This document shows positions 12,482 through 39,020 of a stretch of 39,020 nucleotides of DNA, piece after piece. The notes under the pieces were generated by a model. It saw only the letters and a list, made by a program, of their open reading frames with translations. It had not been told where the DNA came from and ran no database searches. Source of the DNA: a bacterium (GTDB taxonomy: Bacteria > Planctomycetota > Planctomycetia > Pirellulales > Pirellulaceae); contig JANSWS010000022.1 in assembly GCA_024743355.1 (NCBI GenBank), positions 1 to 39,020 on the forward strand. Direction: 5' to 3'. Each line of letters opens with the position of its first letter. Position 1 is the first letter of the stretch. A program made the translations under genes and the position numbers.

Positions 12482-12517
12482 GCGGCGGGCCTCCGCTCGA
12501 TCGGTTGGATGTCGGCA

Positions 12518-13429
12518 TTACGACTCGAACTCTTTCACCGCTTCCGCCACGGCTTCTTGAATCAACTGCCGGTGCTCGGCGAACTCTTTGGGGGTAACCG
12601 AAATTCGCAGCCGTTGCTTGCGGTTGGATACCGCCGCGATTCCGGCGGACGTGAACTTGGGGAGCCATTCTTCCGCGTCGGGTATCCGAAACATCAGATG
12701 CGTGTAGCCCTTGGCCTTGCGCGGTGCCCAGTGGATGAAGTTATTGGCCACTCCGTTTTGCTGGATGCCGATGTAGCCGCGCAAGTACTTGAGTTCTGCT
12801 GGAGTGCGCGTCACCGCGTTAATCTGCTCTAGCGTTTGATCGCAAATCTCGACCAATTCTCGGCCAACCTTTTGTTCCCAGTAGGCGCGGTCTACGGGCT
12901 CGCCGCCGGAATCATCTTCGGAATCGTCCGACCGCAATGCCGATTGATCCAGCACCTGCGTAAAGTTCAGCAAGATCTGGTCATCGACTTTCAACGCGTC
13001 CAGCTGGATGGCGATCAGCGGGATGCTCCCGGAAAGCAGGGCCATGACATTCAGAAAACGGGCCGTTACGTCTTCGGCAATCAGCACGGCTAGATGCTCG
13101 TATGCCGGGTATCGCCTCCGTTCCAGGTCCCAATACTCGATGCAGCGAATGATGTGGTTCGGGTCGGTTGGCCCCAGCTGCAATTCGATTTCATACCGAC
13201 GCTCGTTGTCATCGTCGATCAACAATAGATCTAGCCTTCCGCCTCCGGCCAGCGTGCGTTCGCGGTCTAGCAATCGCAAGTCTTGCCCCAATCCCAAGAT
13301 GGCCGGATCTTCTTCGATCCGATCCTGCACCCAACGTTCGTTCAAAATCGGATGCTTACGGAGTTCGATTTTTTCGTGTTTTACAAAGCGGAGCGACACG
13401 TTCGGTTTCCTGTTTGCGAGTATTGGCAT
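12518..13429 (-). CDS. Nuclease-fold protein with E-x-Q variant active site (NucS/DUF-type)
   Basis: 303 residues from the ATG at 13429, 22 bases after the hsdS stop. The frame is open further upstream, but those residues fall inside hsdS. The N-terminal half carries a PD-(D/E)XK-like core: KHPILNERWVQDRIEEDP helix, GGGRLDLLLIDDD with Asp67, then RRYEIELQLGPTD, where Gln84 takes the place usually held by the catalytic lysine. HIIRCIEYWDLERRRYP follows. The C-terminal part (about 200-303) includes KGYTHLMFRIPDAEEWLPKF and looks like a separate domain. A conserved EIELQLG is known from a family of uncharacterised proteins linked to restriction systems. Either Gln substitutes functionally for Lys, or the protein binds rather than cuts DNA. 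Its position in the hsd operon suggests a role with the type I complex. Confidence 0.7.
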   Translation of the reverse strand: MPILANRKPNVSLRFVKHEKIELRKHPILNERWVQDRIEEDPAILGLGQDLRLLDRERTLAGGGRLDLLLIDDDNERRYEIELQLGPTDPNHIIRCIEYWDLERRRYPAYEHLAVLIAEDVTARFLNVMALLSGSIPLIAIQLDALKVDDQILLNFTQVLDQSALRSDDSEDDSGGEPVDRAYWEQKVGRELVEICDQTLEQINAVTRTPAELKYLRGYIGIQQNGVANNFIHWAPRKAKGYTHLMFRIPDAEEWLPKFTSAGIAAVSNRKQRLRISVTPKEFAEHRQLIQEAVAEAVKEFES

Positions 13430-13451
13430 GCCATACTTCCAAGGCGCTAGC

Positions 13452-14786
13452 TCAGGCCTCTTTCGTGCCCGATACGGCCTCTGCCTCAAGTTCACCATTC
13501 TTCAAGGACTTAGACGCGGGCAGCTGGCCGATTATCTCTTCGGCATCGCCAACTCGCAGTTCGCCGGAAAGCAGCTTGGGCAGTAGAGTGTCCCGGAGAG
13601 CGGAGAGCGTCTCAGATTGCTTAACATTTCGCGTGTGACGAATCCACATCGGCTTTATCGTTTCAGCGAATCGAGTCTGCAACTCGGAGGGCGGAGCCAC
13701 AGTAGTTTCGCGATGGACATCGTTTCTGTTGATTCCCGGCACCGCAGCCTTGTCCAAATAGGCGTGGAAATTGATGGATTGCACGACGTAATACATGAAA
13801 CGAGGCTCATTGCCTTTGAAGTCTCGCACATATAGTGTGGTGTTGAGCGGCCAGCACTTACCTTCAACGAAATCGACATTGCCTATAGTGCCGTACCGTC
13901 CCGTTACGACTGTTGGGCCTACCACCTTGTACTCGCTATGGAATCCGCTTTGACCACCCGATGAGTAAATCGGAAATGGCCCGGGGATACGATTATGCTT
14001 CGGCAGGTCGTACCCACGCTTCAGTTCGAGCAAATCTCCGAGCACAACCACACGCCAACCCTGAGGCACTGTAACAAGTTCGGATTCCTCGAAAGAATCC
14101 GGGAACAGAGCCGCAGTGGCATCATCCATGCCGGGTGGCTTGCGTCCGTCCATCTTGGCTCGCACGGGGTCGAAATCGACGAACCAACTCTTGAATATCG
14201 ACCTCGCAATCGACTCCAAAGTCTCATTCATCCGACGGTTCAACTCAATCTTGTCATCCAGCGAACCCAGGATCGCGGCAATCGCGCGCTGCTCGGGAAG
14301 GGGTGGTAGTACTATCGGTATCCGAGCGATGATCTTCTGGTTGAGGGACGGCATCGTGGTTCCCAATGCATGTTGCAGCATCCAGCTCCTGTGAGCAGGC
14401 GACAAGAATTGATAAGCGATGAATCGGGAGTTGCAATTCTGGGGTAAACGGAGACGTATACCGTCCGATCCCAAGAACCAACCGCTCTGGTTTTTGCGCA
14501 CAATCGCCGATCTTTCAACTGCGCCCTTCCTCCCGAATACAATATCGCCTTCTTGGAGTAGGTACTCAGGCATGCGGTCCGTCACTGTATTGTCAACGCG
14601 TGGTGTCCGACCGTGAAGAACTAGTTCGCCAAAGCCAACTTCACCTACCGAGATCACAGGCACGCCAGTTTCTGTGTATTCAGATGCCTTCAGTTTGGTT
14701 CCAAATGGCCCCGTCTTTATTTCACCACCAAATTGCTCGATGAACTGACCAACCGTCGTTTTCTGCCAGCCAATGTCAGCCTCCAT
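13452..14786 (-). CDS. hsdS: Type I restriction-modification specificity subunit (HsdS)
   Basis: 444 residues, a normal full-length HsdS with two target-recognition domains and two conserved spacer regions. The central spacer reads [20 protein letters not shown], followed by a helix ending in [18 protein letters not shown]. The second half ends with [13 protein letters not shown], a conserved HsdS C-terminal motif. HsdS sets the bipartite DNA sequence recognised by the methylase and restriction complexes; the sequence itself cannot be read off by eye. GGAGGGG lies seven bases before the ATG, and the start overlaps the end of hsdM by 11 bases, showing translational coupling. Both recognition domains appear intact. 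Confidence 0.95.
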
Positions 14787-16458
14787 AACCTAGCCCCTCC
14801 AAGTTGGCCCGAATGGCAGCCTCCAGCTTGGCCGACTCCTCGAACTGCGAGTACAGCTCCTGCGTCAGTTGCTGTATTTTTTCCTCAAAGGGCTCGTCAT
14901 CATCCTCGACCGCTTCAGCCCCCACATACCGCCCCGGAGTCAGCACATAGCCTTGTTCGGCGATCTCCTCCTTCTTCGCGCTGCGGCAGAAGCCGGGAAT
15001 ATCCGAGTAAGCAGCGAGAGGCGAGTTGCGAGCGGCAAGAAAATCCGCGCCCTGCCAGGCGTGATAGGTATCTGCAATGCGTTGGACATCCTGGTCGGTC
15101 AACTCCCTATGCACGCGGTCGATCATGGTTCCCAGCTTGCGAGCGTCCATGAACAGCGTTTCCCCACGACGATCCCTTCGCTGGCCATCATTCTTATTGC
15201 GGGCTAGGAACCAAAGGCAGACCGGAATCTGCGTGCTGTAAAACAACTGGCCCGGCAGAGCGACCATGCAGTCCACCAAGTCGGCTTCGATAATCGCCTG
15301 GCGGATCTCGCCCTCGCCGGATTGATTACTGCTCATACTGCCGTTGGCCAGCACGAAGCCCGCAAAGCCGTTCGGTGCCAGGTGATGGATAAAGTGCTGC
15401 ACCCAAGCGAAGTTCGCATTGCCCTTCGGCGGTAGTCCATACTTCCACCGCACGTCTTCATCGCAACGGTACCAGTCCGAATCATTGAACGGCGGATTGG
15501 CGATCACGTAGTCCGCCTTCAAGTCCTTATGCAAGTCGCGGCGAAACGTGTCCGCATGCTCGGGGCCAAGATTACCTTCGATGCCGCGAATCGCCAAATT
15601 CATCATCGCCAGCCTGCGAGTGGTCGGATTGGACTCTTGCCCATAGATAGCGATGTCCACCTTCGCCTTGCCTCCATTGCCGTTGCCGGAGGCATGTGCC
15701 TTGATGAACTTATCCGCCTGCACAAACATCCCGCCAGAGCCACAGCAGGGGTCGTAGACGCGGCCATTGTACGGGGCCAGCATTTCCACCAGCACCCGCA
15801 CCACGCAGCCAGGCGTATAAAACTGGCCGCCCTTCTTGCCCTCCGCGCTGGCGAACTGCGACAAAAAGTATTCATAGACTCGGCCCAGGATGTCCTTGCT
15901 GCGATGCAGCACATCGCCTGGCTCTTTCTGGCCTTCATTGCCGGAATCCACATCGGATTTGGCTACCAGCTCGATGGTGGCAATCAAGTCGATCAGCTCG
16001 CCCAACCGCTGCTTGTCCAAGGCCGGACGCGCGTAGTTCTTCGGCAGCATGCCTTTCAGCTGCGGGTTATCGCGTTCCACCGCCTCCATGGCATCGTCCA
16101 CCAGCTTACCGATCGTCGGCTGCTTGGCATTGTCCTGAAGATGCTTCCAGCGGGCCTCCGGGGGTACCCAGAACACGTTCTCGGCCAGGTACTCATCCCG
16201 ATCTTCCAGGACTTCATAGCGTTCCGATTCTTCCTCCACGTACAGATCGCTATCCGGGTTTCTCGATTCCGAATCCAACCGTTCCCGCTGCTCGTTAAAC
16301 GAGTCCGATATGTATTTCAAGAAGATCAGCCCGAGAACCACATGCTTGTACTCCGCCGCATCCATGTTGTTCCGCAGCTTATCCGCCGCCAGCCACATCT
16401 TGGCCTCAAAGCCCAGATTGGCGCTGCTGTCCTTCTTCGCCGATTTCTTCTTTGCCAT
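14776..16458 (-). CDS. hsdM: Type I DNA methyltransferase subunit (HsdM)
   Basis: 560 residues. The N-terminal helical domain ([20 protein letters not shown] at 31-50) is that of HsdM_N. The methylase domain has GQFYTP at 211-216, the S-adenosylmethionine motif [10 protein letters not shown] (236-245) and catalytic NPPF at 321-324, the adenine-N6 methyltransferase signature. With HsdS it methylates the bipartite target and protects the host. Its initiation codon follows GGAG at a short distance. It is the first gene of the hsdM-hsdS-accessory block. A 292-base gap separates it from the zinc-ribbon gene upstream, and a promoter is expected in that gap, although only a weak TACAAT-like -10 was noticed. 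All key residues are present. Confidence 0.96.
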
Positions 16459-18953: not shown

Positions 18954-19253
18954 TCAAGCTGCTAACAATTCGCGCCATGCCGGCCCCAGGGGCAAGAATA
19001 CAGAGGCGTTCAGCCAAACCTGCCCTTGGGCCTTTTCGACCTGCTCGTAGGCCCATTCGGTGATCCTGACCGACGCCGACAAGTCCCAGGGTAGCCCAGC
19101 ATCCCGAAGCCGCTCGGCCAATTCCTCGGAGCGACTTCGGTTTCGTTCGGCCCACGATTGCAGGTGCTGTTCCGCAGCCAAATGATCAGACTTTGCATTG
19201 TTGCAGCGTGGATGAGCGAGAACGAAGTTGTGTCCCAGGTCAGTAGGGTAACC
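18954..19253 (-). pseudogene. C-terminal fragment of an HNH endonuclease
   Basis: In the frame ending at 18954, about 98 residues read YPTDLGHNFVLAHPRCNNAK, then SDHLAAEQHLQSWAERN and a long helical tail ending AWRELLAA. This matches the second half of the HNH finger (N..LAH..CN..K.D.L) of a common HNH endonuclease family; the first half, with the DHFIPWSR-type His, is missing. The fragment lies in a different frame from the Hsp70-like gene that runs through the same bases. The match begins abruptly near 19250, so the break is there. It is inactive as seen, because the catalytic His strand is absent. It could have belonged to a former neighbour or to a lost nuclease of the Hsp70/DUF2357 locus. 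Confidence 0.72.
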
Positions 19254-21580
19254 TTTGCAACCGAACGATCTTGACGTTCGAGCTTGACAATTGCGTCTTC
19301 GAAAGAAGACTTTGCCTGCTGAGCAAGTTCTGTACTCGGATCTAGAAAGTCGTTCTCAAAGATTCGATACCGCAACGCATAGACTATGACTAATCCGCTA
19401 TGCTCGAACAGCCATGCCAGTTTATTGATCTTGACTTCGTGGGAGAATACGCGAAGACATTCTTGTACTAGTTTATGGAGTAGTACTGATGAACAATCTT
19501 CCAAAATGAAACGGCGCTGACTGAGCAAGCGACCGAGCGCCTGCATCTGATAATTAACTAAGCGCCCAAAATTCCTCTTCGGTATCTCATCTATCAGTTT
19601 CTGAATGAACCGTACCGCGGTGCGGCTAGATCTAGTACAGCCTCCGACCACCGTACACAGAGGTTCGTCCAGTCTGAGCTCGTGTCGGATTCTATGGTCC
19701 ATCCAATCTCGCAGCGCAGGAGAATCTACTGCAAGAAACCCTAGTGTTTTCATCGCATCACCGACACGTTTGGAGCCTGAGGGCGTCTTAATAACGTAAT
19801 CCGTGAGAATCTTTGCCGCTCGATTGACCTTAGACCGGTCTCCCCCAGGGGGAACCTGGCCGTCCGATCCGACTGGCCCCCGACCGCGAGTCAATCGGCT
19901 AGCACGATGTAATGAAATAAACCTTTGGTGATGACGATTTATTTGTGTATAGTCTTCAACTACTTCAAGGAAGCGGTCGAGTGTAGATTCGAAGTGAAAC
20001 CAAAGAATGCGATCTGGAAACCTGGGTCTTGGACTCGGATATGACCGTTCGCGGGTGCTTTCGAACGTGGCTTTGTCCATGGGATCTCCATGGTGAAGCA
20101 ACTCAGTCATTTTGCGAAAGTTAGCGCGTATAACCTGCGTGGATTGATCCTCGGTGCCGCTGATATAAGCATCCACAATTGCATTTCCCTGTGCAGGGAT
20201 AACGGAAACACGCAACTCGGCTTCCCGTGGATTCGCTGCCTGCTCAGACAATCTCATATCTAAGTGTCTGACACCGACCTCTTCCTCATGAGCTACTATT
20301 AACTCTAGGTTGTTGGCATGCTTTCGGACGCTAAGACCTTTTATTGGAAGGCCCGTCCAAACCTGGCCACCCGGAACAAATTGATCTTCTTCTTGGAGTA
20401 GCGGCAACCATTGGTATTCGTCTTTCCTCTCGACGAATAGCTCAACTCTGGGTAATGAATCGAGATAGGCAATTTGTCCATCCAATTGAATCTGGCGCAA
20501 TCTTGCGGCGCCTTGGGCGGCATAGATTTCTCCTTCGAGTCCAGGCTTTACAACGACAGCTTTTTCAAACGGCACAAAGTCATCTAGCCATGCCACATCG
20601 ATTGCGTTCGCCCAATCTCCTAGAACGATAATTCCCAACAGGCTTGAGCTGAGTTTTGAAACTCGATCACGGAAACCAAGATCGATCGTCTCTAGAGTTG
20701 CCTGTGGGACTGGCCACCCTTGCAGCTTTGCCAATAGATTCTCCAATGGCGCTTCTACTGGCGGCGTAATCGATTTAGATTTGACAATTGGGCTGGTGAA
20801 CAATGCCGCAAATAGATCTGAAATGCCTCCCGCACACGCTTCTTGAGCAGATGATCTAAACCATCCGCAGGATGGTTGCAGATCGTCCGAGGACGGTCGA
20901 CCTCTGGCCGGCATCCAGCGAATAGGTTCGTCCTTTGGCCACGCTACAAGTCTTAAGGTTGTGAAGTTTATGGTGCCCCAATCGCAGTGGCAAACCAGTA
21001 AATGTGGTCCCGGACCCGCATAATCTTTTGGTGTTGGAAGAAGGTCTTGGTTGTCAGCTAGCCATCGCAAGGTCGCAGCGACGGGCCGCCAAGTAAGAAC
21101 AACGTCCAAACCAATCGCACGGCATTCGTCAATGACTGCTTGCTGTTCTGCTTGCCGAAAGTCGTTTGGAACTACGATGGCAAAAGCATCATTTCGGTTG
21201 CCAATTTTAGCCAACGATGAAATGCCCTTCGCGATAGCGTCAATGGACTTGCATGCGATATGCCGATCCATAAAGTTCCAATGCCAACACGGCGTATCAT
21301 GCAATTGCCGCGAAGTCCATGCAGCAGCCAATGGAAATCGACCGCTACCGAATTCCGTTGACACTTTACTTTCTGCGGGCCATTCTGCTCCCGAGCCTCT
21401 CGGGTGTGGCGGGTACCAAGTATCGAATCGTAGCGGTTCGCCAGCGCGATTCGGCAACAACACCGAAGGCGCACAGTGAGATTTGTTCGATTTCGTGGCG
21501 CCATCTACAGGATCGGTAGCGTAGGCCCAAAAAGATGAGCCTAGACTAAGGCCCGCAACCTGGCGTTGAGACGTTGTCAT
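19010..21580 (-). CDS. Hsp70-like ATPase, probably with a foreign C-terminal tail
   Basis: 856 residues as read. The N-terminal 390 residues follow the Hsp70 actin-like ATPase order in divergent form: GLSLGSSFW (phosphate 1, residues 10-18), AFAIVVPNDFRQAEQQAVID (132-151), GLDVVLTWRPVAATLRWL (157-174), HLLVCHCDWGTINFTTLRL (phosphate 2, 193-211), LGIIVLGDWANAI (adenosine-type, 315-327) and IYAAQGAARL (352-361). About 390 residues of unassigned, mostly helical sequence follow. From about residue 777 the gene overlaps an HNH fragment in another frame, and its last 80 residues are poor in structure, so the natural end is probably lost. The ATG overlaps the DUF2357 stop as TAATG, showing coupling. 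It probably works with the DUF2357 protein and an AAA+ ATPase in a defence-type complex; this is inferred from context. Confidence 0.75.
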   Translation of the reverse strand: MTTSQRQVAGLSLGSSFWAYATDPVDGATKSNKSHCAPSVLLPNRAGEPLRFDTWYPPHPRGSGAEWPAESKVSTEFGSGRFPLAAAWTSRQLHDTPCWHWNFMDRHIACKSIDAIAKGISSLAKIGNRNDAFAIVVPNDFRQAEQQAVIDECRAIGLDVVLTWRPVAATLRWLADNQDLLPTPKDYAGPGPHLLVCHCDWGTINFTTLRLVAWPKDEPIRWMPARGRPSSDDLQPSCGWFRSSAQEACAGGISDLFAALFTSPIVKSKSITPPVEAPLENLLAKLQGWPVPQATLETIDLGFRDRVSKLSSSLLGIIVLGDWANAIDVAWLDDFVPFEKAVVVKPGLEGEIYAAQGAARLRQIQLDGQIAYLDSLPRVELFVERKDEYQWLPLLQEEDQFVPGGQVWTGLPIKGLSVRKHANNLELIVAHEEEVGVRHLDMRLSEQAANPREAELRVSVIPAQGNAIVDAYISGTEDQSTQVIRANFRKMTELLHHGDPMDKATFESTRERSYPSPRPRFPDRILWFHFESTLDRFLEVVEDYTQINRHHQRFISLHRASRLTRGRGPVGSDGQVPPGGDRSKVNRAAKILTDYVIKTPSGSKRVGDAMKTLGFLAVDSPALRDWMDHRIRHELRLDEPLCTVVGGCTRSSRTAVRFIQKLIDEIPKRNFGRLVNYQMQALGRLLSQRRFILEDCSSVLLHKLVQECLRVFSHEVKINKLAWLFEHSGLVIVYALRYRIFENDFLDPSTELAQQAKSSFEDAIVKLERQDRSVAKVTLLTWDTTSFSLIHAATMQSLIIWLRNSTCNRGPNETEVAPRNWPSGFGMLGYPGTCRRRSGSPNGPTSRSKRPKGRFG

Positions 21581-22878
21581 TAGCTCACCAAGCTTTCCAT
21601 GAAGTTATCGAGAAAGCCTGGCTTCCTGGTCAGATCAACCGGTGCTCGGAGCAGCTCTTGAGAAATGACCGTACATTCCGGATGCATTTGGTAGCAACTG
21701 AACTTTAGCTCCAACTCAGATTGGTCTTCGACTAGATTTGACTTCTCTGAATCGCATGCAAACTCTGGGGAGAATACGCCCAAGCGGTCCATCTGAACGG
21801 AGCTACGATTGCTCATGAGCACACAGACGGATTCCTTCGAAATTTCCATCGCGTGCCTATGCAAGGCTTCGCCAGCAAGGAGTTCTCGATATGGAGCTAC
21901 GATCAGTCGTTGATCGCTTCTCCAAGCCCAATTTGGTGACTGCGTGCCCCTATCAATCTTCTTGCCTTCCTGAGTGCGCTCAGACACCCATATATCGGAG
22001 CGCGAAGCACGCTTTAAGGCATCCAGTGAACGTCGCCGAATCAACTTGCGCATCGATCCTAGGATTGCACAGTACAGTACCTCGTTCCATGCATTATTGC
22101 GATAGGTCCAAAGGTGACGGCGGCGTAGATGCTGGCGAATGAGTTGTTGATAGGCCCACCAGATTAGATGGTAGCGCGGTTCGCTGAGCAACGCATAGTT
22201 GGGCTGTGGAATCGCAGGCAGGGACGATACATCCATGAATTCTGGTAGACGAAGTACATGTTCACAAAGCTTTAGAAATGCTTTGACTTCCCGTACTGAT
22301 GGATGCGATGGGAAAGATGTCGAATAAAGCGCGAGATAGTGTTTGCACTGCTGCCGAGCCCGAACCAAGACGTCCATGAATACCCGGTTTTCTAGCGTAT
22401 CCCGAGTTTCGAAACGCTGTACTACCATTAAGGCGCGCTTGGAACCAGCCTTCTCCACAACGGTGCGTCCAGGTTGCTTTACAAGCCACTGCGCGCAAGT
22501 GACGTCCATTTCACGGAGTCTGTTGATGGGCTCCATAGATCGACGGCGTTGCAAAATGGTCCGAGGAGAACGGGCAAGTTGTTCGACGACCTTTGTCAAC
22601 CTCTTCGAGATACGCACAATTAGATCTGAAGGGGGGCGATCGGTCCTAGAAATGTGCCTCCATTTCACGAGAATTCTTGACAATGGTCTACATGCGAGCC
22701 CACGTAAGTTGCCTTCCCATGCTAGATCGTTTCCTCTTGGGGAATCGTAGATACCATCTAACATTTGCGAGAATCGTTCCAAACCGTCCAATAGCGACGA
22801 ATTCGCCGGCGGTTGATCAAAATCTGCTGGCATTGCAGGGTCGATGGGGCTGTCGCTTATCTCAGACACTAGCTGCAA
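21580..22878 (-). CDS. DUF2357 domain protein (McrC-related companion)
   Basis: 432 residues. The hallmark is around residues 130-175: WLVKQPGRTVVEKAG and VVQRFETRDTLENRVFMDVL, the DUF2357 pattern (ET.DT.ENR), seen in proteins coupled to McrB-like GTPases or AAA+ ATPases. Basic helices follow. I could not find the PD-(D/E)XK nuclease that often ends such proteins, so it may be a nuclease-free version. The frame begins with TTG at 22878, with GAGAGA just upstream; a GTG three codons in is an alternative. It overlaps the AAA fragment gene by 17 bases upstream and the Hsp70-like gene by one base downstream, so the three form an operon. It is probably an adaptor or DNA-binding partner, which is inference. 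Confidence 0.68.
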   Translation of the reverse strand: MQLVSEISDSPIDPAMPADFDQPPANSSLLDGLERFSQMLDGIYDSPRGNDLAWEGNLRGLACRPLSRILVKWRHISRTDRPPSDLIVRISKRLTKVVEQLARSPRTILQRRRSMEPINRLREMDVTCAQWLVKQPGRTVVEKAGSKRALMVVQRFETRDTLENRVFMDVLVRARQQCKHYLALYSTSFPSHPSVREVKAFLKLCEHVLRLPEFMDVSSLPAIPQPNYALLSEPRYHLIWWAYQQLIRQHLRRRHLWTYRNNAWNEVLYCAILGSMRKLIRRRSLDALKRASRSDIWVSERTQEGKKIDRGTQSPNWAWRSDQRLIVAPYRELLAGEALHRHAMEISKESVCVLMSNRSSVQMDRLGVFSPEFACDSEKSNLVEDQSELELKFSCYQMHPECTVISQELLRAPVDLTRKPGFLDNFMESLVS

Positions 22879-23191
22879 TCTCTCTGGCTCGATCCAACCC
22901 CACCCATTGGAAATAGTTGTCTTTCGAGTAGCGGTCTAGAAACTCTGCCAGAAGTTCGTCGTTACATCGCGGGTCCCTAAGGATCTCCTGAATCGCCAGA
23001 ATTGCCGAACGTCCTGGACCATCTGTCGGGTCAATTCCGCGAAGCCGAGGCAAGATTTTCTGCTCTATCTGGTCGGATATGATCGCCCCCAAATTTTCTT
23101 CCGTGAACGGATAGTTGGCTGCGTATTCGAGCATACCCTTGGTAACGCGGTAGGCAAATGGGCGTTGAACTTGATCCATCGCATCTCGCAA
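22862..23191 (-). pseudogene. C-terminal piece of an McrB-like AAA+ ATPase
   Basis: 109 residues with the layout of the C-terminal lid of McrB-type AAA+ GTPases: PFAYRVTKGMLEYAANYP (sensor-2-like Arg), then ISDQIEQKILPRLRGID and a helical end FQWVGLDR. Walker A, Walker B and the GTPase motif, which would lie upstream, are absent; the frame is closed by a TGA about 30 bases upstream of the start. GGAGG nine bases before the TTG gives a plausible translation start, so a short protein might still be made. I read it as the 3' remnant of the ATPase gene of a three-gene system, but a naturally split small subunit is possible. It overlaps the DUF2357 gene by 17 bases. Confidence 0.55.
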
Positions 23192-23963: not shown

Positions 23964-25700
23964 ATGAGGCAGGACTATCTATTCCCAGAACTAAGCGAAC
24001 CAAGCAAACAGTTGCTCGCTGCAAAGGAAGAGTTTGCTGGAGGTGACCTCGCTGCCCGCGGTGCGATCTACACTCGTCGCGAGGTTGTTGACTTTATCCT
24101 AGACCTTGCAGGTTATAACCCTACTGCATCAATTCTGGACCAGTGTGTACTTGAACCCTCCTTCGGTGATGCAGACTTCTTAGAACCGATTACAGAACGT
24201 CTTCTTCAAGTAGTTGAGTCCAAACAGCTCGGACACGACGAAGCCGCTAAGAAGCTCTGCCAATGCGTTCGCGGTGTGGAGTTAAGCCGGGCTTCCCTAC
24301 AGACCACGCGAGAAAAACTTCATAGGAAACTGCTCGACTTTGGATTTACCGAACGTCAAGCCTCGGCAATTCTTGATGCTTGGCTTATTTGCGATGACTT
24401 CTTGCTGCACGACTTCACGCAGACCTTTGACTTTGTAATCGGTAACCCTCCCTACATTAGGCAAGAATCAGTACCGACTACGCTGCTTTTCGAGTACAAG
24501 AAGCGTTACAAGACAATTTATGACCGAGCCGACCTCTATGTCCCCTTCATTGAACGCGGTCTAACCCTACTAAAGCAGAGGGGCACATTGGGATTCATAT
24601 GTGCCGACCGCTGGACGAAGAACCGATACGGTGCTCCCCTTCGAAGATTTGTATCCCAAGGCTTCCATCTGAAGTTCTACGTGGACATGTACGGAACTGA
24701 CGCTTTCTCCTCTGAGGTTACTGCGTACCCAGCGATTACAATCATTGAACGCTCGAAGACGCGAGCAACACGCATAGCAAAATCCCCAAACACGATTTCA
24801 GCTGCATCGCTTCGCACGCTAGCTGACACCTTAAATTCTCCTAAGCTAGGCAAATCGAGCGGTATACATCTAACAAGAGTCGTTGCTGAAGACGCTCCTT
24901 GGCTTCTCGACTGCCCCAAAACGCTAAGCCTGGTGCGACGCCTTGAAGACGAGTATATGCCGCTGGAAACGTGCGGCTGCCGTGTTGGCATTGGCGTAGC
25001 AACAGGAGCTGACAAGGTCTTTATCGGTGACCAGGAATCCCTTGATGTGGAGGACGAGTGCAAACTTCCCCTGATAATGACTCGCGATATCGATTCTGGA
25101 ACTATCGAATGGCGAGGCAAATTAGTCCTCAACCCTTTTAACGAAGACGGCACGTTAAAGGCGCTGGAACAATATCCGAAGATGCACGCATACTTTTCAT
25201 TTCACGAAACGCATCTAAAAAAGCGGCATGTCGCAAAGAAGAATCCCACGCGGTGGTACAGGACCATAGATAGAATTACTCCATCGCTCACCAAAACGCC
25301 CAAACTTCTCATCCCAGACATTAAAGGCAATTCACATGTAGTGTACGACGACGGAAGATTCTACCCACACCACAACCTCTACTTCATCACTGCTACGGAT
25401 TGGAATCTTCTAGCTCTCAAACACGTGCTCCTATCCGGAATCGCAACCCTTTTCGTTTCTACCTATACAACGAAGATGCGAGGTGGCTACTATCGCTTTC
25501 AAGCTCAATACATCCGACGCATTTGCGTTCCACGATGGGATTCGCTTTCCCGAAGCCTGAAGACTCGATTGACAAATGCAGGCAAGGCCAACGCTGGCCA
25601 GCAGCAGCTTGACCTGGTTGGAGAACTCTACGGCCTGGATGACGCCGAACTCGCCATCTTGCAATCTATGAACTTGCGGGGGGCGACCAATGGGAATTGA
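23964..25700 (+). CDS. paeR7IM: PaeR7I/XhoI-type adenine-N6 DNA methyltransferase
   Basis: 578 residues. The S-adenosylmethionine motif I region is [10 protein letters not shown] (63-72), the acidic motif is GVELSRAS (104-111), and catalytic NPPY lies at 161-164 in [14 protein letters not shown], with a [14 protein letters not shown] helix after it. The C-terminal 300 residues form the target-recognition part. This layout, and the partner gene, identify it as an Eco57I-class gamma methylase of the PaeR7I family. It would methylate adenine in CTCGAG, if specificity matches the family, and so protect the host. GGAGG lies four bases before the ATG. It overlaps the restriction gene by 11 bases, making a coupled pair with the methylase first. 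Motif I reads PSFGDADF rather than the common PSCGDGDF, but the glycine and acidic residue stay. Confidence 0.88.
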
Positions 25701-26424
25701 CCTCGTTGACTACGAAGCCAAAGCACGCGAGTCAATTAAAGCGTTCTGGGGAAATCGTGATGCGGCCAAAAAAAAACAGCAAGAGTTGGGGGTCACTGAC
25801 CAGGGCGAACGCTCTGCTGTCACTGCGGGCAATAATATGGACGGATTCATCGCACTCATTGAAGACATCGTCCATGCCAATGGTCTTAAGTCTGCTGATA
25901 TTCATTTGCAGCGTAGGGTGCTAACACTGCCCGGATTTTTTCGTCCGACCAAACTGTGGGACATCCTTGTGATGAACCAGGGGCGTCTTGTGGCCGCGTT
26001 CGAATTCAAATCACAAGTAGGACCCTCGTTTGGCAACAACTTCAACAACAGAACAGAAGAGGCAATCGGAAGTGCGGTAGACTTCCAAACCGCGTTTCGG
26101 GAAGGGGCGTTCGGCGAGCAAACTGCACCATTTACAGGATGGCTCATGCTTGTGGAGGATTGCCCAAAATCTCGCAATCCAGTCAAGGCAGCATCACCTC
26201 ACTTCCCTGTTATGCCGGAGTTCAACAACACTTCCTACCTTGAACGCTACAACCTGCTTTGCCGCAAGCTTGTGCAAGAAGGTCTCTACACGGCAGCAAC
26301 TTTAATCGCTTCACCAAGAACGGCAGTTGCTGACGGCGAGTTTTCGTCGTTGAGCGAAGTAACAAATCTAAAGACCTTGCTTACTTCGTTTGCTGGCCAC
26401 GTCGCGGCTGAAGCGGCCCGCTAG
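25690..26424 (+). CDS. paeR7IR: PaeR7I-type type II restriction endonuclease
   Basis: 244 residues, essentially the length known for PaeR7I (246). The catalytic PD-(D/E)XK core is LWDILV with Asp91, then [20 protein letters not shown] with Glu105-x-Lys107. [12 protein letters not shown] near the N-terminus and the [19 protein letters not shown] segment are family marks. It is predicted to cut CTCGAG (XhoI isoschizomer). The start lies within the last codons of the methylase, with a GGGGGG-rich site ahead of it. The frame is complete. An IstB fragment follows within 50 bases, pointing to movement by recombination between insertion elements. Confidence 0.9.
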
Positions 26425-26669: not shown

Positions 26670-27863
26670 CTATTGGCCTTCACCTTTGACCGACAGGCTA
26701 ATTGGTCTTAGCGCTACCACAGTGGCCGTGCCAAGACGGTAAAAGAGGGCCATGTTAACTGAGCCCTCTGCCGCACGCTTCAAAAGCCCGAGAGAAAGTC
26801 GAGCGAAAAGTTCTTTGGATATCTGGGGAATGCTGGAAAGAGCACCTTCGAAGAGGCTGTCAGCTAACTCGTCGATCCGCTCCTCTAATTTCGCAGAAAC
26901 AAAGGTGGAAAAAAAGATTCTCCATGTCAGCAAAACTGATTGCCAGCGACCTGTTCTGACGCCGTATAAGCGGCAAAGGTCTTCCACCATTAGAACGGCA
27001 TTTGTCGCAACAATCAGAGAATCTACGAAGCCGGTGGGGCTAATCGCAGTTTTTACCGCAACCCTTTTAGCGTAACTGGTTACTCGCCGTTTGGCCGTCC
27101 TATCAATCACTGAAACAAACAACCGCTCACAGTCTTCGATCCATCTGGACTGCCCTGCGTTCTCGGAGCCCAAAAGGCTCTCGATATTGGAATTGAAGGT
27201 GTTTATTTCGTCCCGATTCATTCCGCATCGGACAAGCAACGATTTATGCTTCTTGTCCGAGATTGGATACGTTTCGACTATTGCTCGCAGTGATTTATAT
27301 CCTGCTTCAACCTGCCGGTGGATTTGATCTCTTGTGGCCGCTCTTCGTTTGGTCTGCCGTATCGCACCGAGATCTACCTTTGGAGTGACAGACAATAGGC
27401 GATACACCAAGGCAAGGCGAATCAAGGCGATGCAAAAGACGATGGCGAGAAGTCCAATGCAGACATAAGCAATTACCTGCATAATGAAAGGGGATGCCTG
27501 TACGGCTTGAACGAACTGAAAGAATTCGCTCAGGATGACGATGAGAATTCCAGTAGCGGCAAATAAAATTGCAGCCGAAATTACTGGGCTTGAAAGGAGC
27601 TTGCCGAGACTGAACCCGTCGCTGTTTTCCTCTTCAAATTCACTCGCTGTATCCTCAAATTCTTCAAGCACCGGATCGACAAGAGCTTCTACTTTGCGTC
27701 CGTGAATTGGTCGCTGATTCGGTACGCCAGCGAGCTCTTCATCGCCAAGGTTTCGACCTGTAGTTTGCCCAGTCACCTCGTCCTGTGAACCAACCCCTGC
27801 GTTGGTGAAAGTTCGGGGTTTTTGGAGCGGAACACCCGCATGTAATTCCTTTTCATCAGTCAT
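26670..27863 (-). CDS. YcjF-like membrane protein with DUF697 domain
   Basis: 397 residues. An acidic, soluble N-terminus (about 1-85) is followed by two hydrophobic segments (VISAAILFAATGILIVIL at about 90-110, and a second near 125-155 that includes VCIGLLAIVFCIALIRLAL). Then comes the DUF697 region, SPTGFVDSLIVATNAVLMVE and LCRLYGVRTGRW, ending FYRLGTATVVALRPI. This is the organisation of E. coli YcjF and its relatives, which pair with YcjX. It begins right after the YcjX-like stop; AGGTGA five bases before the ATG at 27863 makes that start better than the GTG at 27872. It is probably an inner-membrane partner of the GTPase. The gene end overlaps the trailing frame of the IstB remnant, not the remnant itself. 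The role is not established even in model bacteria. Confidence 0.82.
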   Translation of the reverse strand: MTDEKELHAGVPLQKPRTFTNAGVGSQDEVTGQTTGRNLGDEELAGVPNQRPIHGRKVEALVDPVLEEFEDTASEFEEENSDGFSLGKLLSSPVISAAILFAATGILIVILSEFFQFVQAVQASPFIMQVIAYVCIGLLAIVFCIALIRLALVYRLLSVTPKVDLGAIRQTKRRAATRDQIHRQVEAGYKSLRAIVETYPISDKKHKSLLVRCGMNRDEINTFNSNIESLLGSENAGQSRWIEDCERLFVSVIDRTAKRRVTSYAKRVAVKTAISPTGFVDSLIVATNAVLMVEDLCRLYGVRTGRWQSVLLTWRIFFSTFVSAKLEERIDELADSLFEGALSSIPQISKELFARLSLGLLKRAAEGSVNMALFYRLGTATVVALRPISLSVKGEGQ

Positions 27864-27872
27864 TCTCGTCAC

Positions 27873-29222
27873 CTAAACTTGAGATTTAACCAAGAAGTCG
27901 ATGATGTGGTCCATCCCAAGGTGGTCAGGTGCCAAGGCGGCATTTTCGGGAAACAAAGGGGCTACGTCAGGGAACACGAACTCACCTTGCTCCCATTTTC
28001 CAGGCCAACGTGACGGTAAATCAGATACAGGATACTCGACCGGCCCATCATCACCGAGCAGATTTCCTCGAAGGGTTCCGTCAACTTGACTAAAGGTTGA
28101 TTTTACTGCTGCGCAGGCGAAGTAGCGGCATTCAAGATTGCTCGTTCGCTGCTTTTGCCGTTCAACAATTCCACCAGACATGTCCTTTGCAAGATCCACC
28201 AGTTTGTCTCGCTGACTGTCATGCACCTTATCAGCCTTTGTAGCCACCACTGCAATCTTCGATATTCCACGACGACCGATCCTTCCTCCAAGACTTTTTC
28301 GGAGCAAATCAAGACCGATGCCAAGAAGACCTCTCCCCGGCGAAAGAATTTCAAATAGAAGTTCGAGCAAAGCTCGATTGCCGTTGTACATCCCTGTGTT
28401 TGCCGCCAACAAGGTCGTTACATCGAGCAGGACAACCATCTCGTTGCAGCGTGATAGGGACTTCACCAAAGGTCCAGCCAAGTTCTTTCGATAATCGGCG
28501 TATCTGCTCGCAAACAACTTTGATAGCTCAGGTTTCGAATGGCGAATGGACTGTGGCAAAGGAGCGAACTGCGAGTCAGCAGAGAGGCCGCAATAAGCCG
28601 AAGCGTGGTCGCCTTTTATAATAGACGTGCCGTTAAATTTCCCATCCGCAGTAAGGAGGAACGTGGAAGGAGAAATTATTGGTCGAAATGACCGATAAAG
28701 TTCGGCTAGAAGTTCTCGATAAGAAGCTACCACAGACTGCTCAGTTGCCGATTGATCTGACGCAAGTTGTTGATAAGACTGAGCGGCGTCTCGGTAATGA
28801 CCATCTTGAAAGACTTTCTGGAGGAGCCTGTCAGACCACTGCCCATAAGACAGCTTGGCAATTGCTATGTCGGAAAGTCTTTCGCCGGGGATGTCCACAA
28901 GAGATAACTCCCCTTTACTCCACCCCCAATCACTCCGAAAAAAGGAACAGCGATACTGAAAGGTGGCCTTCGTTTTCTTAGGCCAATTTCCATTATTCTC
29001 GTACCGGAACTCTTCGTATGGAAAGCGAGAAAAACCATTCTGCGGGGGCAACTCCTCATCGAAGGTAATCTTGATGCTGCCATCTCCTAGCTTTAGCTCA
29101 TCGGGACGATGGTGCATCAAGTGATTGATGAGTGAGGTAATAAAGACTGTCTTTCCAGAACGATAAAGCCCAACGACAGCAATGTCGTGCTTGCTTGAAA
29201 AGAGCTTTGGGGGGCGCATCAT
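27873..29222 (-). CDS. YcjX-like P-loop GTPase (DUF463)
   Basis: 449 residues. Walker A is AVVGLYRSGKTVFITSLINH close to the N-terminus (GLYRSGKT). A switch-like LSLVDIPGERLSDIAIAKLS follows, and IAVVATKADKV near residue 330 is the guanine-specificity TKAD motif. These match the YcjX family of GTP-binding proteins, of which E. coli YcjX is linked to the phage-shock locus. The frame runs upstream to 29321, but the start is placed at ATG 29222 (or 29219), because a small lipoprotein gene ends at 29230 and the family starts near the P-loop. It abuts the YcjF-like gene. In this cluster it follows a secreted nuclease-like gene, so it may control an envelope process or the output of that nuclease; this is inference. 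Confidence 0.85.
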   Translation of the reverse strand: MMRPPKLFSSKHDIAVVGLYRSGKTVFITSLINHLMHHRPDELKLGDGSIKITFDEELPPQNGFSRFPYEEFRYENNGNWPKKTKATFQYRCSFFRSDWGWSKGELSLVDIPGERLSDIAIAKLSYGQWSDRLLQKVFQDGHYRDAAQSYQQLASDQSATEQSVVASYRELLAELYRSFRPIISPSTFLLTADGKFNGTSIIKGDHASAYCGLSADSQFAPLPQSIRHSKPELSKLFASRYADYRKNLAGPLVKSLSRCNEMVVLLDVTTLLAANTGMYNGNRALLELLFEILSPGRGLLGIGLDLLRKSLGGRIGRRGISKIAVVATKADKVHDSQRDKLVDLAKDMSGGIVERQKQRTSNLECRYFACAAVKSTFSQVDGTLRGNLLGDDGPVEYPVSDLPSRWPGKWEQGEFVFPDVAPLFPENAALAPDHLGMDHIIDFLVKSQV

Positions 29223-29229
29223 TTGCTCA

Positions 29230-29391
29230 CTAATTCGGATCAGGAAGTGGGGGTAGGTCCAGACCGCCCTCCTGATTACTTGCCGGTTTCGATGAATCAT
29301 CGGTTGAGGTTGATTCCTCATTGGATGACCTGCAACCCGCTACAGCGATGCAGCAGATTGCGAGAAGAACAGGGCAAACCCACTTCGTCAT
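29230..29391 (-). CDS. Small lipoprotein, 53 residues
   Basis: This gene is easily missed because of its size. It reads MTKWVCPVLLAICCIAVAGC, giving a lipobox VAGC with Cys20, then a Ser/Thr/Asp-rich linker and a proline-rich end PPLPDPN. The start overlaps the stop of the preceding gene as ATGA, and the stop lies seven bases before the GTPase start, so it is fully inside the operon. The mature form would be about 33 residues, acidic and disordered, tethered to the membrane. ATGA coupling directly behind a toxin-like nuclease suggests an immunity or anchoring role, but nothing in the sequence proves this. Confidence 0.72.
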   Translation of the reverse strand: MTKWVCPVLLAICCIAVAGCRSSNEESTSTDDSSKPASNQEGGLDLPPLPDPN

Positions 29392-35466: not shown

Positions 35467-36126
35467 TAAGTGCCGAAAAGAGGAGAGAAGCGGGCTATTT
35501 GCTGGGCTCGCAAGCGACTGCGGATACGCCGATAAGGTCGAAATCACCAGCGCTCTCGATCAGCTTAGTTAAATAGGGGTGGGTAAATTCATTCCAATGC
35601 TCAATGTTGGTCTAGCCAGCTTTTCGCAAGCGTTTGACCAAAATCTGCGCATTTGACCGGGAGATGAAGCGTGCCTCATGGATCCAGTGCCGACTAACCA
35701 ATCCGTTGTTCGCTACGACGCAGGCGTGCCATGCATCATCGATCTCCACCGCTACGACCCGACTGCGGCGCACCACGACCTCTCTAGATATGAGTGAACG
35801 ATACCCCATCTTAGCGACCCGCCTTGCGATAAAGGGCACAGATATTGCCGGGCGGAGGCTTTGTTGTCGCACTCCCTTATTAAGCGGCACCTTATAACGC
35901 GACTGGCTTAGTCAAAGCAAGCGTTCGCAGCATGTCTGGCGGAAGCTAATCTTTGGGTTTCGCAGTCTGAATCGCGCGACCTGCTGAGCGACTCAGCTGG
36001 CGTTCGATTCGACTCCGCTGCCTTAAAGGGGTATCGCAACGGCCTAGTGGGTGCCTGCTGATGGTAGCAGCAGAACTGCCAAAGCGACAAATGCAAACTC
36101 CTTGGGCGTTGTCTTGCAGGCTGCTA
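35467..36126. other. Gene-poor stretch, second part
   Basis: Apart from one possible 65-codon minus-strand gene (listed separately at 35612-35809), nothing is supported here. The stretch between the accessory genes and the excisionase-like gene may hold promoters or an origin, but I could not identify one. Confidence 0.35.
35612..35809 (-). CDS. Possible small hypothetical protein
   Basis: 65 residues starting MGYRSLISREVVV, with strand-like EIDDAWHACVVANNGLV and a basic end RFISRSNAQILVKRLRKAG. The composition alternates hydrophobic and charged residues as in a real small beta protein, but the ribosome binding site is weak and no family is recognised. The frame is open to 35890. It could be a non-gene. 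Confidence 0.3.
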   Translation of the reverse strand: MGYRSLISREVVVRRSRVVAVEIDDAWHACVVANNGLVSRHWIHEARFISRSNAQILVKRLRKAG

Positions 36127-36564
36127 TTACTTGTCCCATTCGGGGCGGATCTTGTTTGGAGGATCTACGGTCTTTCGCCTGCGAAGTGTGATCGTAATCT
36201 CATCCGGCAGCGAGTCCACCTCTGGGGGATACTTATCGTAGACAAGCGCTGGATTTCCGAGTGGTATACCAGGAAAGTTCTTTATCTCTGCGAGATTCAC
36301 AAGGATAAGTGTCTGATTGATGTCGATTGCATGAATCATGTTCTGACCGCGCCACCTACTGATGGTGGAGCGATTTATTATACCAGTCTCAGGAGGGTCA
36401 ATCTTGTTCTTCAGCTCGGCTGCCTCATGTTCTGTGACCCAACCTACAACGTCGTAAATCGGAGCTGGCTTAACAATTCTGCGTCCATCGGTGTACTTCT
36501 TCTTGGCCCCCATCCTCTTTTCGTCAGTCCGTTTGTGCCAGCCATGCTTACGCTCTCTAGCCAT
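36127..36564 (-). CDS. Excisionase-like helix-turn-helix protein
   Basis: 145 residues. GAGGGAAG nine bases before the ATG supports the start; the open frame goes on to 36657. The basic N-terminus is followed by YDVVGWVTEHEAAELKNKID, TISRWRGQNMIHAIDINQTL and INQTLILVNLAEIKNFPGIPLGNP. This is the MerR/Xis-type pattern: helix-turn-helix, then wing with name-like IH.I.I..TL and E/DIK. Such proteins regulate or direct excision of phages and integrated elements. It lies about 690 bases from the tRNA-Cys remnant, the predicted end of the island. No integrase accompanies it in this window. Confidence 0.55.
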   Translation of the reverse strand: MARERKHGWHKRTDEKRMGAKKKYTDGRRIVKPAPIYDVVGWVTEHEAAELKNKIDPPETGIINRSTISRWRGQNMIHAIDINQTLILVNLAEIKNFPGIPLGNPALVYDKYPPEVDSLPDEITITLRRRKTVDPPNKIRPEWDK

Positions 36565-37253
36565 ATTTGTTCGCTTCCCTCTAAAGAATCCCTGGCTTCT
36601 TCCCGACATTAACTGCTCGTGAATTGAATTCCTTGCGTCCGCCTTTGGTAATAGCATCCGTTACTCACATTGAAGTCAGTGGCGCCCGGCTTAATTAAGG
36701 GCAATATTATCGGCCTCTTTAGACGGATGGAAATGCCAGACATTGGCGGCATGAAAAAAAGATCGCGATTTCCTGAGATTGTGCGTCAAAAGTCGCAGTA
36801 GGCGGTGCCTTTTATTGCAAAGGGATTCCAAGGGGTGGTAAGCGACTTTTTTCCGCTCAAGGGTCCGCATACGCATAGTGCGTTTCAATCGTACTTTTTA
36901 GGCGGCTGGTGAAGTCGAGCAGGATCAAGCTGGTAAATATTGGGGCCGGCTCAAGTACTGTTCTGCGCATCCCACTATCGCGCGTTTCGTGACAAGAAGA
37001 AGCCTGGATTGCTGGATCAGCTTTCGACTATTATCAACGTGTCGCCTGTACGCACTGAGGAGCCCTGTGACTGACGGAAAGATCTTCCGTTTGGGTTGCT
37101 GAGAAACGGTAATTACCGGATTCGCTTTCGGTAGACACCGCGAAACCCTGCAAAAACGTGCATTTCATTGCGAAGGGTACTTGGCACCCAAAAGCTGCTT
37201 TTTATGCTATTCCCCTAAGGAAAGAAGTGAATTTTGAGTGCGGCCAGCCTAGC
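36565..37253. other. Non-coding end of the island
   Basis: Only short frames occur. No integrase, recombinase or RNA gene was recognised. The stretch lies between the last supported gene of the element and its attachment-site remnant. Confidence 0.45.
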
Positions 37254-37295
37254 TTGCAAATCCATTATTCGCGGGTTCGACTCCCGCCGACGCCT
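37254..37295 (+). repeat. 3' half of tRNA-Cys(GCA): attachment-site remnant
   Basis: The bases decode as a tRNA from the anticodon loop on: loop TTGCAAA with anticodon GCA (37254-37260), 3' anticodon strand TCCAT (37261-37265), variable loop TATTC, T stem GCGGG, T loop TTCGACT, CCCGC, 3' acceptor strand CGACGCC (37288-37294) and discriminator T. CCA is not encoded. The sequence just upstream (ggccagcctagc) cannot form the 5' anticodon strand, which would need ATGGA, so there is no full tRNA. Breaks exactly at the anticodon loop are typical of tyrosine-integrase targets. The fragment is therefore the displaced end (attR-like) of an island whose intact tRNA lies to the left. Confidence 0.85.
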
Positions 37296-37999
37296 CTGCA
37301 ATTTGATCAAGCGATTCGTTGGTCCAACGTAACCTCGGGCTGTTCCGAGAGCTGTTTTTCAGTGACCATTCTGTGGGTGGGCGCCCAAAAACGCTATCTG
37401 GTCTCAAGCACTGTTGATTAGCAACCCAACTTCTCACGGCCATCAGGCGTCTGGCCAGCCTCTCGTTGCAATCAACGGGTAGAACTTCTTCCTGGGCAAA
37501 ATAGGGCTATACCGAGAGCGTAGGGGGTAACCCGCAAACGCTAGCACAGCACCTAACCCTCAGGTGTGCTCTCAATCGACTGGGCTGCGTAAGCATACGG
37601 CGCGCAGAAGTCGAGTCGATCTTTTCTCGCAAGCCAACTCTCTTTGGGCCAAGTGAGCCCAAATGCTCAACCATGGCGATGGTGCTCTCGGTAGACCAGG
37701 CTGGCGATCGAAATGCTAGGTTTCCCCAACCTTGGCGGGCCGCAGGAGTAGCTTCCGAGTAAGTTGATAGCTCTCCTGATTTCTTCGGCTACGATCCGGC
37801 CTTGGCTGTCGGGTTAGCTCTGCGTTCCGGTCGACGTTAACAGTCGACTCTGTACCCCGTCCGGCCAATGGTGTGCGGCTTGGTCGCTGAAAGCGTGGCA
37901 CTGGTGCCGTGCCAACTAGCTCCCCTCAGGCAGGAAAGACTCCCGTTGCCGAGGCCTAACCTTTGGCCCGTTTTCCGATCACAAACCAAGGAATTCAAC
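37296..37999. other. Intergenic outside the island
   Basis: No gene is supported. Some open frames on both strands are rich in Arg and Pro and look like chance. It separates the attachment remnant from the first host-like gene. Confidence 0.4.
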
Positions 38000-38527
38000 A
38001 TGCGTCTTGCAGCACTCGTTTTGGCCAATTCCCGCTTCCATGTATGCCTGGTGTTCGCTGCTTGCGTCACTCTTCTCTCCGCTTCCCAACTGATTGCCCA
38101 GGACGACACGAAAGAGCACCTTAAACCACTACAGCATCGAATTGGCACTTGGGATTTTAAGGGAACGATCGGGGACGAAAACGTCTCCGGAAAGCTGATT
38201 TGCAAATGGATCAACGATGGCAATTTCTTGCAGCAATCGCTTCAATACTCCACGGGAGAGATCACGCACGTCATTGGCTGGGATCCTAATGCCAAGGAAC
38301 TGCGATCCTGGGGCTTCGGCGGAAGTGGTGGTCATGGACTTCTGGAACTAGTCAAAGTCAGCGACACACATTGGAAGGAGCAATCACTCAACTGGGTCAC
38401 TGCTGCCGGTGATAAGGCCAAGTTTGTTTTAGACATCGATATCAATAAGAACCAGCTCCAAATCAAGGGTGATTTTGACGCTGGAGAGTTCAAAGCGACA
38501 ATCGAGCTGCGAGGGGAGAAGAACTAA
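38000..38527 (+). CDS. Secreted DUF1579-like protein
   Basis: 175 residues with an export signal (MRLAALVLANSRF...LIAQ, cleavage expected near SQLIAQ/DD) and a lipocalin-like domain: LKPLQHRIGTWDFKGTI, CKWINDGNFLQQSLQYS, THVIGWDPNAKELRSWGFGG and a C-terminal strand set. The order LIGTW..., GWDP..., RSW.F.S..G is that of planctomycete secreted DUF1579-like proteins. The start is chosen because AAGGA precedes ATG 38000 and it gives the signal peptide; the open frame upstream to 37868 does not. It probably lies in the periplasm. The ligand is unknown. It appears to be host chromosome, outside the island. Confidence 0.8.
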   Translation: MRLAALVLANSRFHVCLVFAACVTLLSASQLIAQDDTKEHLKPLQHRIGTWDFKGTIGDENVSGKLICKWINDGNFLQQSLQYSTGEITHVIGWDPNAKELRSWGFGGSGGHGLLELVKVSDTHWKEQSLNWVTAAGDKAKFVLDIDINKNQLQIKGDFDAGEFKATIELRGEKN

Positions 38528-38614
38528 CACCGAAGGTAAGCAACCAACTGCCAGGGCAACATACGGGTCTTGCAGCTTTCAGGTGGTCAAACCGGGAACC
38601 AGCTCACCTACACA

Positions 38615-38992
38615 ATGGCCAAATCACTGATTGATATTGTGCGCAAGATCCTTGGCGATGATAAATCGTGGGTCGTATTCAGGAACGGCACGTGTGTCAT
38701 CGTAAACGATCCGCAAGTAGACCTTGGCGAGCATGCGATCGCGCTCATAAAGGAGTGGGGACCGGTCTATCCAGGTACGCCCCACGGTGATTTCAACACA
38801 TTCAAATCCGGGCCAACAGATGGTTGGATTGTGACTAGCCACCACAACGACATTATCACCTATGTGGGCCGCAGCGAGGTCGACGACTCTACCGCATCGG
38901 CTTTATCGATCGGTCTGATCGGTCGCGCTAAGCGGGATCGGGATGCGCGGGACTGTGAAGTTGTCTACGTCCAGCAACGACGAGACGCATGA
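38615..38992 (+). CDS. Conserved hypothetical cytoplasmic protein
   Basis: 125 residues starting MAKSLIDIVRKILGDDKSW, then VVFRNGTCVIVNDP, WGPVYPGTPHGDFNTF and GWIVTSHHNDIITYVG. The alternating strands and the repeated aromatic/Gly motif suggest a small alpha/beta domain. There is no signal peptide. No function is recognised. Its ribosome binding site is weak, and an in-frame ATG at 38570 is an alternative. It lies 87 bases after the secreted protein gene in the same direction. Confidence 0.6.
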   Translation: MAKSLIDIVRKILGDDKSWVVFRNGTCVIVNDPQVDLGEHAIALIKEWGPVYPGTPHGDFNTFKSGPTDGWIVTSHHNDIITYVGRSEVDDSTASALSIGLIGRAKRDRDARDCEVVYVQQRRDA

Positions 38993-39020
38993 CCGGTTCA
39001 GTAGTAATGGTGATTCATAC

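Follow-up and report, generated by a model that had tools for sequence, protein, structure and literature searches.

A tRNA-Cys 3' half in a defence-rich planctomycete contig as the probable junction of two related integrative elements

Introduction

The integrase gene intB13 of ICEclc is served by a promoter, Pcirc, that reportedly lies at the far end of the element and acts in the circle. Pcirc is listed at position 102,729 for the integrase transcript (PMC2892462). In the KplE1 prophage (argW-intS), attL lies between the tRNA and the integrase gene and overlaps the integrase promoter (PMC2951348). Islands at the anticodon site and stacks of islands are already known; of the 3919 islands in the Islander table, 2083 use the anticodon site, and the table also includes 125 tandems with two or more members (PMC4383910).

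The DNA analysed here, called the window, is the complete contig C586 (39,020 bp) of a draft genome of the Pirellulaceae. Positions 37254-37314 are very probably an att core enclosed by two related integrative elements that are stacked in tandem at tRNA-Cys. A stack at one tRNA accounts for the absence of a plain host edge on this contig, which is rich in defence genes, and it marks tRNA-Cys as a repeated landing site. The folded leader found between tRNA and integrase makes two questions testable: how a single integrase family switches tRNA targets, and how excision and integrase expression are coupled.

Results

A displaced tRNA-Cys 3' half and its intact counterpart

The core is made up of two overlapping features:
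37254-37295, + strand: tRNA-Cys(GCA) 3' half, base 32 to discriminator; att core, very probably between two elements
37254-37314, + strand: 61-bp exact direct repeat of L003:10022-10082 (contig C756; tail of the intact tRNA-Cys and 18-19 bp)

Over positions 37254-37295 the window agrees with the intact tRNA-Cys found elsewhere in this genome, beginning at T32, base 1 of the anticodon loop, and ending at the discriminator. An earlier note had read this stretch as tRNA-Cys from anticodon loop to discriminator without a 5' half, and its coordinates were exact. The 5' half is absent at 37254, ARAGORN found no whole tRNA in the window, Rfam gave no match in 36000-39020 and direct repeats of 25 bp or more were not found inside the window. 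The repeat on C756 has 0 mismatches in 61 bp (46 consecutive shared 16-mers); identity thus begins at anticodon loop base 1 and ends 18-19 bp past the tRNA. The last 27 bases of the tRNA, searched with up to 3 mismatches in the entire assembly (8.31 Mb, 823 contigs), occurred at two sites, in the window and at C756:29037-29063, and the reversed pattern, used as control, had 0 matches in the whole assembly. A chance tRNA-like sequence or an assembly artefact might be suspected in a draft of 823 contigs, but this is extremely improbable given that the 61 bp are exact, are set exactly between two recognisable arms and recur in the same layout in other genomes.

On C756, ARAGORN identified a whole tRNA-Cys(GCA) at 28990-29063, and a 413-residue tyrosine recombinase (PF00589, E 3.5e-10; phrog_1, E 1.7e-29) begins 125 bp behind it on the same strand. 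A DUF1580 gene (E 6.9e-11) follows about 325 bp beyond the integrase and the contig ends soon after. Upstream of the tRNA are ORFs which we take, by eye, to be 6-phosphogluconate-dehydrogenase-like and glucose-6-phosphate-dehydrogenase-like. The spacer between integrase and DUF1580 gene (L003:11431-11754) folds strongly, with an MFE z of -2.87 for 11500-11745; no homologue of it was found in the loci searched.

The second copy of the tail belongs to an intact tRNA-Cys that is followed by an integrase. Hence 37254 marks an att core, and to its left is the right end of an element that entered through the anticodon loop. The earlier note had proposed just such an integrase-made junction, with which repeat, intact tRNA-Cys and integrase agree, and had placed the element to the left, the same side that follows from the intact tRNA-Cys and integrase on C756. 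The check that it suggested, a search for a tRNA-Cys with identical 3' half and adjoining integrase, found this arrangement on C756 and not on C586; as C586 ends with the window, the intact tRNA cannot be sought further left on that contig. Both the intact tRNA and the displaced fragment of the same gene are thus in the genome and their orientation fits, but they are on different contigs. C756 and C586 probably carry the two ends of one element, A. The end of C756 and the start of the window do not overlap, window positions 1-400 match only themselves in the genome, and that the two contigs share no sequence at their ends counts against a stack.

The DNA upstream of tRNA-Cys is conserved in all eight same-genus tRNA-Cys loci (blastn). 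Downstream, where seven of the eight loci, C756 and the window were compared, matches at E 1e-8 were confined to the pairs G002/G009 (strong), G009/G010, G002/G007 and C756/G005 (integrase start). With upstream DNA conserved and downstream DNA mostly different among relatives, tRNA-Cys looks like a variable landing site. The tRNA-Cys of G005 (L013), which shares the right flank, was considered as an empty site and rejected because an integrase fragment lies beside it. The search for a relative with both flanks joined and an empty site found none, a further point against the stack.

A probable second, decayed element right of the core

Four features lie to the right of the 3' half:
37298-37519, + strand: integrase-side arm (P') and integrase start of a second, decayed element (nhmmer)
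37308-37356, + strand: three-way-junction leader remnant, two hairpins kept, outer helix broken
37426-37506, + strand: integrase N-terminus remnant (residues 6-32 of the C756 integrase) with an in-frame stop
38000-38527, + strand: secreted-protein-like ORF of no Pfam family, host or second element

Profiles were built from the 260 bp strictly after the tRNA (tRNA bases excluded) of sister elements at other tRNAs. The profile of five elements (His, Phe, Lys, Arg, Arg) gave a single window match below E 1, at 37300-37519 with E 1e-17, and one further match at E 4.3. The same place was found with all 14 elements (E 1.9e-17, next 1.8) and with the 12 non-Cys elements, whose match had E 1.8e-12 and whose next best (0.042) fell at 37104-37144, within the left arm. 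When 37254-39020 was compared by blast with the fetched loci, C756 (95%/82 bp), the tRNA-Cys of G005 (84%/74 bp) and the tRNA-Phe of G008 (74%/100 bp) matched from the tRNA tail into integrase-side DNA, and matches wholly beyond the tRNA were found with tRNA-Lys of G004 (78%/60 bp), tRNA-Arg of G012 (78%/54 bp) and tRNA-Arg of G001 (86%/28 bp, E 0.023). One reading frame right of 37296 resembles an integrase start and has a stop inside; all eight family integrases used in tblastn matched within 37417-37506 (E 0.003-0.10), the place expected for the start of an integrase. The remnant is short (about 27 residues) and each tblastn match is weak, which was counted against the stack; the claim of a second element builds on the DNA profile and the position. 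From the likeness of the arm and the broken integrase start it follows that a second, decayed element begins at 37296. The view of the earlier note that 37254 is the island end with host to the right found no support: the DNA right of 37296 belongs to the integrase-bearing end of a different element. The junction very probably falls within a tandem array; the edge to the host is either beyond the window or escaped recognition.

A single island ending at 37254, with ordinary host DNA from 37296 and elements that copied the sequence downstream of the host tRNA-Cys, would fit the repeat, the orientation and the integrase, and the C756 arm does equal the right side of the window for 18-19 bp past the tRNA. 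The likeness, however, extends via the leader into the integrase start, common to His, Phe, Lys and Arg elements; moreover, of the eight tRNA-Cys loci in the genus, L013 is alone in sharing DNA past the tRNA (L007 is comparable over 19 bp), and L013 carries an integrase fragment in that shared DNA. We consider this explanation improbable. Still less probable is that the contig represents an excised circle or the attP of a single element: the order P arm, 3' half, P' arm, integrase would be the same in a circle, and seven other loci look alike, but the integrase beyond 37296 is broken, and after the 61-bp repeat the C756 arm and the right side of the window diverge and hence belong to two different elements.

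In the remaining genomes of the genus, matches to the gene in the right flank were all weak (best E 7.4e-10). Contig C643 (3.5 kb) carries, at 2758-3209, a shortened paralogue of window positions 37642-39014 (up to 89%/199 bp).

A sister stack and related junctions

In the sister genome G013, one contig carries a whole tRNA-Pro, an integrase, 37.7 kb, a 55-bp repeat (98%) that starts at tRNA position 31, a leader and a broken integrase start (nhmmer E 6.9e-15, tblastn E 3e-7). It is an independent single-contig stack. Six elements have both ends in reach, and their repeats begin at tRNA gene positions 29-33 (L103 29, L115 32, L117 30, L137 33, G008-Met 32, G013-Pro 31), compared with 32 in the window. 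Seven right sides were inspected (the window, G013, G008-Met, L103, L115 with only 113 bp, L117 and L137); a recognisable second element was present behind two of these known cores, the window and G013, both of this genus, and this low number was held against the stack. The right side of L103 has a hairpin and then a T run, not a second element. A further junction in the own genome (C478:17669-17926) has a leader, a broken integrase start and a T-loop motif, and no whole tRNA.

Right arm and cargo of the left element

The left element contains the following features:
1-37253, no strand: left element, cargo and right end, left limit beyond the window, no other clear family junction
4387-7437, - strand: serine/threonine-kinase-like protein (best PADLOC models PD-T4-6, residues 69-355 of 1016)
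7609-16458, - strand: type I restriction-modification (hsdR 7609-10707, hsdS 13452-14786, hsdM 14776-16458)
23964-26424, + strand: type II restriction-modification (Eco57I-type methylase 23964-25700, XhoI-type endonuclease 25690-26424)
26670-29321, - strand: pair of a DUF697 protein and a YcjX-like (DUF463) protein
37107-37118: palindrome CGGTAATTACCG in the right arm (P arm), half-site type as in sister integrase-side arms
37181-37208, + strand: promoter-like TTGGCA-16-TATGCT at -73 from the core and aimed at it, candidate circle-only integrase promoter

The left element is defence-rich. A DUF3800 gene and two further, unassigned ORFs lie between the type I genes, further cargo in 1-37253 comprises DUF2357, HD and endonuclease/phosphatase genes, and a phrog_874 protein is encoded near the right end. 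Three ORFs in a row at 19010-23191, a large one without Pfam or PADLOC match, the DUF2357 gene and a small one, adjoin the restriction systems and are a candidate defence system. A tRNA-Phe element of G008 (C1 near 7387000, L050) has relatives of the window hsdM and hsdR behind its integrase. Scans of 28 window proteins against one or more of Pfam, PADLOC and PHROGs (four in PADLOC only) revealed no conjugation gene (relaxase, T4SS), the left part of the element being outside the window; eight window proteins were compared with PHROGs and two matched, both to families of unknown function. Apart from the remnant there is no integrase gene in the window; the tyrosine integrase is beside the intact tRNA. 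The proposal of the earlier note that more than 37 kb form one island remains the simplest one, and 1-37253 contains no other clear family junction, but it depends on two contigs without overlap.

Promoter-like sites were evaluated in 14 P arms (seven known cores and seven loci with a 3' half only), and the significance belongs to this set. Sigma-70-like sites aimed at the core had a mean score of 7.07 compared to 4.87 (sd 0.48) in dinucleotide shuffles (0/400), whereas the reverse strand was ordinary (108/400). The sites start at -70 to -84 in 13 of the 14 arms (shuffles: mean 5.2, maximum 10). TGCAA-like words at -60 to -95 were present in 10 arms compared to a mean of 0.73 (maximum 3) in random windows. 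Palindromes were found in 7/14 arms compared to 2.95 in random windows, whose maximum was 8; enrichment is not significant and is therefore not claimed.

The integrase family and its DUF1580 neighbours

The integrase matched (E ≤0.001) in 10 of the 15 genomes of the genus, the own genome included, which has four family loci besides C478, at Cys, Met, Asp and Arg tRNAs (Arg in two pieces). A single short peptide pattern, run once against 84,980 species, gave at least 66 loci, by record titles 58 from Planctomycetota, three from Hydrogenedentota, one each from Proteobacteria and Eisenbacteria and three titled 'bacterium'. Among 62 loci with at least 120 bp upstream, a whole same-strand tRNA precedes the integrase in 47, with 109-192 bp (median 136) from tRNA end to integrase match; a tRNA 3' half only was seen by eye in seven (L083, L111, L126, L132, L134, L138, L141), and eight have neither or are ambiguous. 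Full-length integrase matches behind a tRNA are also present in cultured planctomycetes such as Adhaeretor mobilis HG15A2 (L088) and Aeoliella straminimaris (L119). Across the family, the distance from tRNA to integrase is about 110-190 bp, and the tRNAs belong to at least 14 isotypes. When 59 integrases (14 isotypes, seven labels by eye) were placed on a quick tree, the raw minimum was 36 isotype changes; L132 and L137 (many stops) are on long branches, and the C756 integrase pairs with that of the tRNA-His element L082 (SH-aLRT 99).

Of the 57 loci that offer 600 bp or more of downstream sequence, 32 have a DUF1580-like ORF within 2.5 kb, in 30 of these on the integrase strand. In whole flanks (443 kb upstream and 467 kb downstream searched), 38 of 40 such ORFs were downstream of the integrase. 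DUF1580 may be a directionality factor or a regulator; in open-licence literature, searched as full text, no paper mentions DUF1580 by name.

A three-way-junction leader between tRNA and integrase

The spacer that separates tRNA and integrase forms a three-way junction made of an outer helix (GCCG/CGGC, GCTG/CAGC or AGCG/CGCT), hairpin 1 and hairpin 2, and located 8-25 bases behind the tRNA. In 18 seed rows, picked by eye from 73 and aligned on sequence alone, double-sided changes were found in 11/15 pairs and 90.3% of the cells pair; the covariation was 0.343 compared to 0.146 in shuffles (0/500) and at most 0.078 in slid versions. RNAalifold found just one 4-bp helix in the sequence-only alignment of all 73 rows; the leader is argued from smaller hand-chosen sets and a blind genome search. 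Model R1 found 47 places at E ≤1 in 81 sources (1.0 Mb, both strands), the 18 seeds counted among them and E-values being rough; 46 are in integrase leaders and the odd one is inside L120 (E 0.14). It finds 42 of the 62 family loci and misses 20, six of them of the AGCG subclass. In 45 distinct rows of a model-fitted alignment, 94.3% of the cells pair, 13/15 pairs show double changes and the covariation was reached in 0/500 shuffles. The 12 hand-chosen rows of the AGCG subclass, the window included, had values of 89.2% and 8/14 pairs, and shuffles reached the covariation score in 0/500 and the number of further pair types in 24/500 cases. On the right side of the window, the best R1 match (10.1 bits, E 0.088) is on the minus strand and is not the leader; R1 was built from another leader subclass than the window copy, and its miss of that copy was counted against the stack.

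The blind R1 search of 199 Planctomycetota genomes gave 19 matches in 15 genomes (E ≤0.01), three of them from the own genome including one seed (L148), and 18 not among the family loci fetched earlier (L029-L048, L082-L147). A tRNA T-loop motif lies within 60 bp before all 19, a whole tRNA ends 9-15 bp before 15, and an integrase match follows 15, two of the other four being near a contig end. In L152 and L160, the leader is right behind a whole tRNA with no integrase match within 400 bp after it; the integrase is decayed or replaced. Rfam 15 recognised only tRNA above threshold in the C756 and L103 leaders. In a fixed register of hairpin 2 (38 of 72 rows), 23 G-T compared to 7 A-C cells (two-sided p 0.005) lean towards a leader that would act as RNA of the tRNA/integrase strand, rather than as folded DNA. 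Nothing on this family or leader was found in open-licence literature on Planctomycetes islands or on structured or conserved RNA or three-way junctions with integrases, and the Rhodopirellula island literature, among the matches listed, describes neither. The leader is a short signature for tRNA-integrase junctions in Planctomycetota that needs no integrase sequence, and it helps to place element ends in fragmented genomes.

Discussion

With the repeat, the intact tRNA and its integrase, the arm of B and the broken integrase start at hand, the stack of two elements probably arose as follows. An older element, B, would have inserted first at tRNA-Cys, and a younger element, A, would then have integrated into the tRNA restored by B; this order is the probable one. 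The integrase of A would recombine inside the anticodon loop, leaving the tRNA whole beside its own gene on C756, and the displaced 3' half would now stand between the right end of A (to 37253) and the decayed integrase-side end of B (from 37296). In the assembly, A is represented by the fragment at 37254 and the C756 integrase, and B by the integrase remnant within 37298-37519; a third core copy, at the far end of B, was not found at ≤3 mismatches, which speaks against the stack.

The predicted promoter at the right end of A is aimed at the core. The excised circle would therefore read promoter, tRNA 3' half, folded leader, integrase, and the P-arm site could, judged by sequence, drive the integrase via the 3' half and the leader. 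Transcription of the circle would give integrase when the element must reinsert, and the leader may act on this transcript. We tentatively put forward, at somewhat less than even confidence, that the three-way junction could be an undescribed cis-acting RNA of Planctomycetota integrative elements, transcribed from the tRNA promoter in the integrated state or from the P-arm promoter in the circle, which would tie the output of integrase to the state of integration, the family itself moving freely among tRNA isotypes.

Like the Islander islands, the locus has a whole tRNA and a displaced 3' fragment in the same orientation and an integrase in the island (PMC4383910). In contrast to them, it belongs to a single integrase family that occurs mostly in one phylum and at tRNAs of at least 14 isotypes; a folded leader is present, and the second member is decayed. 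KplE1 also has tRNA and integrase on one strand; it is not known to have a folded leader and uses the factor TorI, whereas DUF1580 genes often follow the integrase here (PMC2951348). ICEclc is conjugative, in contrast to the 28 scanned window proteins with no recognised conjugation gene, but its Pcirc is comparable to the P-arm site proposed here (PMC2892462).
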